From the NCBI GenBank assembly GCA_024635625.1, contig JAGXIQ010000167.1, positions 1 to 64,000 on the forward strand: a stretch of 64,000 nt of DNA, in the 5' to 3' direction. Origin of the DNA: Loktanella sp. Lineage in GTDB: Bacteria > Pseudomonadota > Alphaproteobacteria > Rhodobacterales > Rhodobacteraceae. A model generated the notes under the pieces. It saw only the letters and a program-made list of their open reading frames with translations, was not told the origin of the DNA and searched no databases. This document shows, in pieces, positions 41,731 to 43,075 of this stretch. The first letter of the stretch is position 1; each line of letters opens with the position of its first letter. The translations under genes were made by a program, and so were the position numbers.

Positions 41731-43010
41731 ATGATCTTACGCCTGGTGCCACTGGTGGTTGCCGCACCGCACCCGTGTTGAAGCAACGCGGCCAGCGCGA
41801 AGTTTTCTGTGGCCTCACTGGAATTATCTGGCTGCACCGCAAAATGCAGGACGCATTTTTCCTCGTTGTTGGTAGCCGCACTTGCGCCCACCTTCTGCAA
41901 TCGGCGGCTGGCGTGATGATCTTTGCCGAACCCCGCTTCGGTACCGCAATCCTTGAAGAACAGGATCTGGCGGGCATGAAAGACGCGCATACCGAACTCG
42001 ACAGAGAAGTCGCCCGCCTGTTGGCCCGTCGCCCCGATATCCGTCAACTCTTCCTCGTCGGCTCCTGCCCGTCAGAGGTTATCAAGATCGACCTTGCCCG
42101 CGCTGCTGAACGGCTAAGCCAAGTTCACGCGCCACATGTCCGTGTGCTGAATTATTCCGGTTCTGGAATTGAAACGACCTTCACAGAGGGCGAAGACGCT
42201 TGCCTCGCTTCTATGGTCCCTGTCCTGAAGGACACGGCGGCCCGTGAACTCTTGCTGGTCGGTGCATTGCCCGACGTGGTCGAGGATCAGATGCTGTCCC
42301 TGCTAGGTCAGATGGGGATCGACAATATTCGCTTGCTGCCCGCACGGCGCATCGATGACACAACGGCAGTCGGCCCAAACACTGTATTCGCCCTGACGCA
42401 GCCGTTTTTGGGGGAAACCCACGCCGCACTGGAACGCCGCGGCGCGCGTCACATCGCGGCCCCCTTCCCGTTCGGTGAAGAAGGTACAACCCTTTGGCTG
42501 CAAGCCATCGCCACCAAATTCGGTGTCAGCGCTGACACATTCGCTTCTGTCACAGATGCCCCCCGTGCCCGCGCCCGCAAGGCAATCTTGCAGGCATCAG
42601 AGGGGTTGCGCGGCAAATCTGTATTCTTTTTTCCTGACAGCCAACTTGAAATTCCGCTGGCCCGCTTCCTGACCCGTGAATGCGGCATGACGGCAATCGA
42701 AGTTGGCAGCCCCTATATACACGACGCTCTGCATGGTCCCGACCTTGACCTGCTACCTGCCGGACCGCAGATCAGCGAAGGGCAGGATGTCGACCTGCAA
42801 CTTGACCGGGCTCGTGCCGCCCGCCCCGACCTGACGGTATGCAGCCTAGGCCTCGCGAATCCGCTAGAGGCCGAAGGCCTGACCACTAAATGGGCAATCG
42901 AGCTCGTCTTCACCCCGGTGCATTTCTACGAACAGGCGGGCGACCTCGCCGGTCTTTTCAGCCGGCCCGTGCGGCGCAAGTCTCTGCTAAAGTTGGAGGC
43001 CGCTGAATGA
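41727..43010 (+). CDS. bchN: Dark-operative protochlorophyllide reductase subunit N
   Basis: A 427-residue subunit of the nitrogenase-like reductase, which reduces ring D of protochlorophyllide without light. Cys28 (EVFCGLTGI), Cys53 (SRTCAHLL) and the Cys in LVGSCPSEV near residue 114 match the three Cys ligands of the BchN-BchB 4Fe-4S cluster. The start overlaps bchF, and GGAGG near the 3' end precedes a small reading frame that leads into bchB. Confidence 0.97.
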
Positions 43011-43075
43011 TCCCCGTCCCCGCTTTTGTGCACATAATCTGGGATTCGGGCCAGTGCCCCGGGCGGCAACTATGA
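43007..43075 (+). CDS. 22-codon mini-gene coupling bchN to bchB
   Basis: An ATG at 43007 overlaps the bchN stop (ATGA) and is preceded by GGAGG at 7 bases, a better ribosome site than bchB has. The frame runs 22 codons (starting [15 protein letters not shown]) and ends with a TGA that overlaps the bchB ATG at 43072 (ATGA). Both junctions have the form used by translationally coupled genes. It may be a coupling leader or a tiny protein. No homologue is known to me, so the protein claim is weak while the coupling architecture is directly visible. Confidence 0.5.

Follow-up and report, generated by a model that had tools for sequence, protein, structure and literature searches.

A small frame between bchN and bchB of Loktanella sp. 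as a probable translational relay across inserted DNA

Between bchN and bchB of Loktanella sp., a reading frame of 22 codons starts within the stop codon of the first gene and stops within the start codon of the second. It was studied in a stretch of 64,000 nucleotides (contig JAGXIQ010000167.1 of assembly GCA_024635625.1; hereafter the window) and at the corresponding junctions of other Rhodobacteraceae. With considerable confidence, we interpret this frame as a relay mini-cistron, which would keep termination-reinitiation coupling across inserted DNA whatever the sequence of that DNA. In the comparison of relatives, it appears to be the phase and the openness of the frame that are kept, not the peptide.

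Methods

For the bchN/bchB survey, 181 genomes had a match; 30 of them were used as loci and 118 more were taken in, and the remainder, in part weak or unlisted matches, were left out. The 242 loci were reduced to 233 with both genes on one strand (two loci lacked bchN, and seven lacked both genes), and identical junctions were merged to give 203 unique junctions. The start of bchB was set by homology to the N-termini of relatives, independently of the mini-frame, and the stop of bchN by the frame of bchN itself. The tree of BchN was reconstructed with FastTree and is a quick, unrooted, single-gene tree, in which 199 of the 203 rows, with 64 spacers, are included. The chance of an open spacer was estimated with dinucleotide shuffles, under which 49.0 of the 66 bchN/bchB spacers (0.74) were open.

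The relay rule was applied to 66 bchN/bchB spacers, to 16 + 7 bchY/bchZ spacers (the own genome being counted twice) and to 28 bchH/bchL spacers, among which there were three exceptions. For bchH/bchL, 35 of 36 loci (the best 30 and 6 more) were read; L382 was probably misread. The cluster control used 20 stretches from 18 photosynthesis clusters and unambiguous gene pairs at least 15 nt apart. For the genome-wide test, an in-house gene caller was run on the window and on 1.2 Mb from three genomes, and 72 of 725 pairs were dropped as ambiguous. The outside-family set consisted of 37 usable bchN/bchB junctions among the matches listed; L461 was misread and was not counted, and L463-L465 were without the genes.

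Results

The bchN/bchB junction in the window

The features of the window are listed in Table 1. The bchN stop codon TGA (43008-43010) shares bases with the ATG of the mini-frame (43007-43009) in an ATGA, and the mini-frame closes, after a peptide of 22 residues, at a TGA (43073-43075) that overlaps the ATG of bchB (43072-43074) in a second ATGA. The sequence-only reading had described the frame in this way, and had added that its GGAGG is well placed and that bchB is without a good site; both observations hold, the GGAGG lying 7 nt before the mini-frame ATG (spacing of 7 nt) and the longest Shine-Dalgarno (SD)-like match upstream of bchB being 3 nt. An in-frame GTG at 43054 exists as an alternative bchB start and is not needed. 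The closest named relatives of this BchB are those of Loktanella (88%). The stop/start overlap of -4 or -1 nt that marks termination-reinitiation pairs is present at both ends of the mini-frame in the window, and likewise in 66/66 of the bchN/bchB spacers of the family.

Table 1. Positions in the window of the features discussed in the text
Feature	Positions	Strand	Remarks
bchN, upstream cistron	41727..43010	+	TGA overlaps the mini-frame ATG
GGAGG, likely ribosome-binding site of the mini-frame, within the end of bchN	42995..42999	+	In direct-overlap relatives, the site at the same place precedes bchB itself
Putative relay mini-cistron, 22 codons + TGA, ATGA overlaps at both ends	43007..43075	+	Anatomy and relatives
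61-nt spacer between bchN and bchB, missing from direct-overlap relatives; diverged copy of the hairpin element	43011..43071	+	Alignment
GGGCCAGTGCCCCGG, putative remnant of the hairpin core of the spacer element	43048..43062	+	Pattern search and alignment
bchB, downstream cistron, ATGAAG start, without a good ribosome-binding site of its own	43072..44628	+	Homology
Putative second relay mini-cistron, bchH to bchL, 37 codons + TGA	48157..48270	+	ATGA at the bchH stop, TGATG at the bchL start; AAAGGAGG for bchL inside
bchL	48270..49166	+	
Possible third relay, acsF to puhE, 38 codons + TGA	54708..54824	+	TTG start in the acsF stop (TTGA); ends in the puhE ATGA (54821 by homology)

A lone frame of this kind is weaker evidence than the sequence-only reading held, since no overlap is commoner in the relatives than ATGA at the bchN stop and a TGA is inherent in a Met-Lys start (ATGAAR). 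Given both ATGAs, the chance of an in-phase open frame in a single genome is 1/3 × 0.74, or about 1 in 4. The statement that a chance frame is unlikely goes too far for a single genome but is correct at the level of the family; only in the family comparison, with 66/66 spacers, does the frame lie far beyond chance.

Phase and openness of the spacers in the family

Among the 203 junctions, 135 are direct 4-nt overlaps, in which bchB starts with ATG (129), GTG (5) or TTG (1), and 66 carry spacers of 40-112 nt. The other two are a 1-nt overlap (L237) and a 3-nt gap after TAA (L023), the latter without a mini-frame. The spacers have 20 distinct lengths, and all 66 lengths are 1 mod 3. In 66/66 spacers the start of the mini-frame overlaps the bchN stop, the frame is open, and its TGA overlaps the bchB start; the remaining two frames are open in 59/66 and 50/66. 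The phase is significant at p = 3e-10 when each length is counted once (3e-32 when each junction is counted), and the openness, 66/66 against the 49.0/66 expected from the shuffles, at P of about 1e-9. In L022, L091 and L087, TAATG or TGATG takes the place of ATGA at the bchN stop; the mini-frame start is then displaced by 3 nt and the phase is kept. The start named by the script at the ATGA position was CTG in L087, L141 and L165 and GTG in L061; in all four, an in-frame ATG follows directly (TGATG).

Loss of the frame in close relatives had been named as evidence that would count against the proposal. All seven Loktanella-group genomes that have bchB keep it (7/7), with spacers of 58, 61 and 67 nt, and a genome of the family that was met later (L485) has a 64-nt spacer obeying the same rule. 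The proposal that bchB receives its ribosomes through translation of the small frame has strong, if evolutionary, support in the phase and openness kept in the 66/66 family spacers. Among named strains, Loktanella fryxellensis DSM 16213 has a spacer of 61 nt and Tateyamaria omphalii DOK1-4 one of 91 nt, and Roseobacter litoralis Och 149 has the direct overlap.

The BchN tree requires no fewer than 38 switches between overlap and spacer, and the lengths of the 64 spacers in it must have changed at least 46 times. No number of insertions is claimed from this, because the tree is quick, unrooted and based on a single gene and because photosynthesis clusters are reported to move between lineages (PMC6052148). 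The direct ATGA overlap is probably the older state of the bchN/bchB junction.

The distribution of SD-like matches differs between the two kinds of junction. Before the mini-frame start, a match of at least 4 nt is found in 62/66 spacers and one of at least 5 nt in 53/66. Before bchB, a match of at least 4 nt is found in 110/135 direct overlaps, against 29/66 junctions with a spacer (p = 1e-7), and one of at least 5 nt in 79/135 direct overlaps, where the SD-like site usually lies within the end of bchN. By these counts, that site is no worse where it serves the mini-frame start than where bchB uses it directly. The predicted accessibility of the bchB start gave no clear difference between the groups (0.39 for direct overlaps, 0.43 with spacer). 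Gene tables of plasmids, which are stated to be incomplete, have no entry between bchN and bchB.

The 29/66 spacers with an SD-like match of at least 4 nt before bchB would suit another explanation, in which bchB is translated independently, or a post-termination ribosome scans the spacer, and the phase is inherited from one founding insertion. We regard it as most unlikely. Against it stand the 20 lengths with their many inferred changes, all in steps of three, the same phase kept at three different junctions (see below), and the report that, in native E. coli pairs, an added 38 nt almost completely abolishes reinitiation (PMC10666635). Independent initiation may nevertheless contribute to the expression of the downstream genes, since those 29 spacers give bchB such a site and bchL has a strong site of its own.

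The peptide

As an alternative, the small frame had been proposed to encode a micro-protein of the reductase. That all 66 spacers are open with a start, and mostly with a good ribosome site, is what a conserved micro-protein of dark-operative protochlorophyllide reductase would also give, but the 66 spacers encode 66 distinct peptides of 15-39 residues, and no such frame exists at the 135/203 direct-overlap junctions. The check for codon-type substitution that had been suggested for the Rhodobacteraceae was performed on nine close pairs; the differences at codon positions 1/2/3 were 50/38/42 (130 differences only; chi-square p = 0.42), and no third-position excess was found. Neither these positions nor the peptides gave a sign of purifying selection on the mini-frame peptide. 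The micro-protein reading was rejected for the peptide diversity and the codon positions, and is hardly credible.

What the spacers consist of

An element resembling AAATACTCCGGGGTCCGGGGCAGCGCCCCGG is present in many spacers, and both of its orientations occur among the junctions. With a loose pattern, a GC-rich hairpin element with a GGGG-T-GGGG core was found in 31/66 spacers, and neither this core nor an AAATA/AAAAT box in 17/66, among which is the spacer of the window; the phase is kept regardless. With at most 1 mismatch, the 18-base core of the element was found 0-11 times per genome in 9 genomes of the Loktanella group; the copies lie at several junctions of the cluster, and ordinary intergenic sites hold some as well. 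Its long form (at most 2 mismatches) occurred three times in 21 genomes, in G396, G397 and G399, each time at bchN/bchB, and was rejected as a genome-wide repeat.

In global alignments of the window's spacer with the spacers of L031, L032 and L035, 0/2000 shuffles scored as high; by this alignment, the window's spacer is a diverged form of those spacers in other Loktanella genomes that carry the hairpin element. The pattern GGGCCAGTGCCCCGG has one match in the window against 0.26 expected and is found in 21/100 shuffles, so that it is weak by itself; it is supported by the spacer alignment. ATGA at both ends of the mini-frame would fit a 4-nt duplication, and would equally be required by function.

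With such an element present, the spacer might act at the RNA level, as a hairpin, terminator or processing site, and the frame might be incidental. The core in 31/66 spacers and the occurrence of the element between genes elsewhere speak for this. A hairpin, however, needs no length of 1 mod 3, and the 17/66 spacers without core or box in the loose pattern are still in phase. In the window, no terminator (a stem followed by a T run) was found in the spacer, one weak site lying inside bchN (42935-42950); no promoter-like site was found in the spacer; the junction region folded no better than shuffles (z = +1.13); and Rfam at gathering scores gave no match at the spacer. An RNA element as the sole explanation was rejected because the phase is kept in spacers without recognisable marks and because the window's spacer has no terminator, and we consider this explanation very unlikely. 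The hairpin element may add a function, yet it fails to explain the frame. Elsewhere in the window (34559-34847, + strand), there is an Rfam match to 5_ureB_sRNA with 89 bits.

Other junctions of the photosynthesis cluster

The same arrangement recurs at other junctions. At bchY/bchZ, a homologous pair, the best 30 of 167 genomes with a match gave 16 spacers of 58-178 nt, 16/16 of them 1 mod 3; at the remaining loci of those 30, 13 overlap by 1 nt and one by 7. In all 16 spacers an ATG (13) or GTG (3) overlaps the bchY stop, and the stop codon of the mini-frame starts no more than 2 nt upstream or 7 nt downstream of the first base of bchZ. Within the genus, 7/7 clusters have bchY/bchZ spacers of 49-109 nt, all 1 mod 3 (the own genome is counted in both sets). 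In the own genome, the bchY/bchZ candidate is a 38-codon frame on a separate contig (L243, 1447-1563), which ends a few bases inside bchZ.

At bchH/bchL, 28 of the 35 loci have a start overlapping the bchH stop and a gap of more than 20 nt, and 25 of these 28 gaps are 1 mod 3. In two of the exceptions (L378 and L380, the start in L380 being our own reading), the mini-frame ends 11 nt inside bchL; in the third (L383) it runs in phase into bchL. In L383, bchL could begin at the bchH stop with 16 extra residues, which would be an alternative way of keeping the overlap. Six bchH genes that end with TAG and have no overlapping start are followed by gaps of 16-27 nt with phases 1, 0, 2, 1, 2 and 1. 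In the Loktanella group, seven clusters obey the rule at all three junctions (bchN/bchB, bchH/bchL and bchY/bchZ). The possible relay between acsF and puhE is uncertain, since the puhE frame is open upstream to 54671. At the acsF/puhE junction of a related genome (G400), there is a TGATG and a frame of 28 codons.

Controls in the cluster, in whole genomes and outside the family

In the cluster control, 73 of 308 pairs were counted, ambiguous starts being excluded. Phase 1 was found in 19/22 pairs with an ATG overlapping the upstream stop, against 11/38 pairs without an overlapping start (p = 3e-5); the 19 consist of bchN/bchB, bchH/bchL and bchY/bchZ pairs and one acsF/puhE pair and thus partly repeat the other counts, so that the new part is the mixed phases of the other junctions. 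Phase 1 was found in 0/4 pairs of the GTG class and in 4/9 of the TTG class.

The genome-wide test considered gaps of 15-250 nt; where an ATG overlapped the upstream stop, phases 0/1/2 occurred 7/9/3 times. Of the nine pairs in phase 1, six belong to the photosynthesis cluster, and leaving them out gives 7/3/3. Note that the gene caller may bias the phases, since the pairs without an overlapping start are uneven too (95/50/62). No excess of relays outside the photosynthesis cluster was found in the window and the 1.2 Mb from three genomes, and the relay as a genome-wide rule was rejected for want of support in this sample. In the G278 stretch, a 40-codon frame with an ATGA start lies between two predicted genes and ends at the start of the next (stop at 253606, + strand of the joined stretch).

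Outside the family, 27 of the 37 junctions among the matches listed have gaps of 1-7 nt, and seven have an overlapping start. Two gaps among these matches are at least 20 nt long (20 and 102 nt); neither has an overlapping start, and their phases are 2 and 0. The 102-nt gap (L472), which is out of phase, makes that bchN/bchB pair a candidate uncoupled pair. From the mixed phases elsewhere, the gaps outside the family and the genome-wide test, the device appears to be tied to pairs with an overlapping start and, in this sample, to the photosynthesis cluster.

Discussion

The proposed course of events is as follows. The ancestral junction would have been an ATGA overlap of 4 nt, as in most of the Rhodobacteraceae sampled, where the last part of bchN usually holds an SD-like site. 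A diverged intergenic hairpin element, about 65 nt long, would then have come to separate bchN and bchB in this lineage. The ATGA at the bchN stop and its ribosome-binding site would still be used, so that a ribosome finishing bchN would restart there and make from the spacer a peptide of 22 residues without meaning, unfolding any RNA structure that it meets; it would terminate exactly at the bchB ATGA, and then restart or aid initiation. Selection would act on phase and openness, not on the peptide.

What such a relay would achieve can be judged from the distances over which coupling acts. In native E. coli pairs, an added 14 nt is reported to cut reinitiation by 40-80%, and an added 38 nt to abolish it (almost) completely; reinitiation, as Huber et al. 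put it in that study, drops steeply with distance (PMC10666635). The 61-nt spacer should, for this reason, uncouple bchB from bchN. We infer from the anatomy and the conservation that a spacer read as a frame, with a coupled overlap at each end, restores the link in two steps; coupling that would otherwise be lost over tens of untranslated bases would be kept because the gap is translated. The anatomy, the keeping of the frame, the lack of a conserved peptide and the recurrence at other junctions are observations, whereas the translation of the mini-frame, the direction of the change and the reinitiation step are inferred.

An equal dosage of BchN and BchB, which according to the sequence-only reading the small frame would help to keep, is plausible. 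It is unlikely to be the full explanation, however, as bchH and bchL are joined in this way too. To our knowledge, BchH and BchL are not partners in one complex.

It has been disputed whether a ribosome can restart after crossing untranslated sequence between genes, or whether it has to terminate almost at the very start of the next gene (PMC10666635). The junctions described here are dozens of natural replicates that bear on this dispute: among the overlapping pairs of this cluster, a long gap is hardly ever kept unless it is translatable. They are also a warning that small frames can matter without a conserved peptide. Coupling is predicted for bchN/bchB, bchY/bchZ and bchH/bchL, and perhaps for acsF/puhE.

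Among the papers searched, none combines bchN, bchB and translational coupling. The titles and abstract openings of papers on ribosome profiling in Rhodobacter, on a Roseobacter intergenic repeat and on coupling in the photosynthesis cluster did not mention relay frames, and no wider claim is made from these.

Several known systems resemble parts of the arrangement. In termination-reinitiation at ATGA or TGATG overlaps, as described in PMC10666635 and PMC6728339, the same coupled state of -4 or -1 is found as at both ends of the mini-frames; unlike in those single overlaps, the overlap would here serve twice in series, across a gap that is expected to abolish coupling. In uORFs, in the biotechnological short-ORF design (PMC12548453) and in the nonsense nfORF booster (PMC13255528), the peptide is likewise irrelevant and the stop lies at the downstream start, and the strong ribosome site inside the mini-frame before bchL is a further likeness to such short leaders. 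In contrast to these, as far as they are described there, the leader is here natural, lies inside an operon and is itself joined by an overlap to the upstream gene.

The mgtQ frame between mgtC and mgtB of Salmonella is likewise a small intercistronic frame that promotes downstream translation, but it is described as starting 51 nt after mgtC, opening a stem-loop and depending on particular codons (PMC8092293), whereas the frames here overlap both neighbours and have no conserved codons. Some of the small frames that lie between genes of Enterobacteriaceae overlap a neighbouring gene, or have their start or stop no more than 10 nt from it; such frames are treated as potential micro-proteins or proto-genes, and no phase-locked, peptide-neutral bridge is described in the passages considered (PMC11188072).

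The nearest precedent is the MIRU of mycobacteria, an intergenic repeat with a small frame, coupled at -4 nt to the downstream gene, the insertion of which probably costs little expression (reviewed in PMC12548453). The likeness lies in a small frame in the direction of the operon with a -4 nt overlap at the downstream start, and this is found here. Unlike the MIRU as reviewed there, the spacers here are diverse in sequence, vary in length by steps of three, carry one element in either orientation or no recognisable copy of it, and occur at several junctions of one photosynthesis cluster of the Rhodobacteraceae. It is conceivable, though we put this forward only tentatively, that the Rhodobacteraceae have a sequence-diverse MIRU counterpart of their own. 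On this view, short spacers that move or expand would lodge at junctions coupled by ATGA or TGATG, and only those readable as a relay would persist. Bridge cistrons that are locked in frame but neutral in peptide would then accumulate in operons, at several junctions simultaneously.
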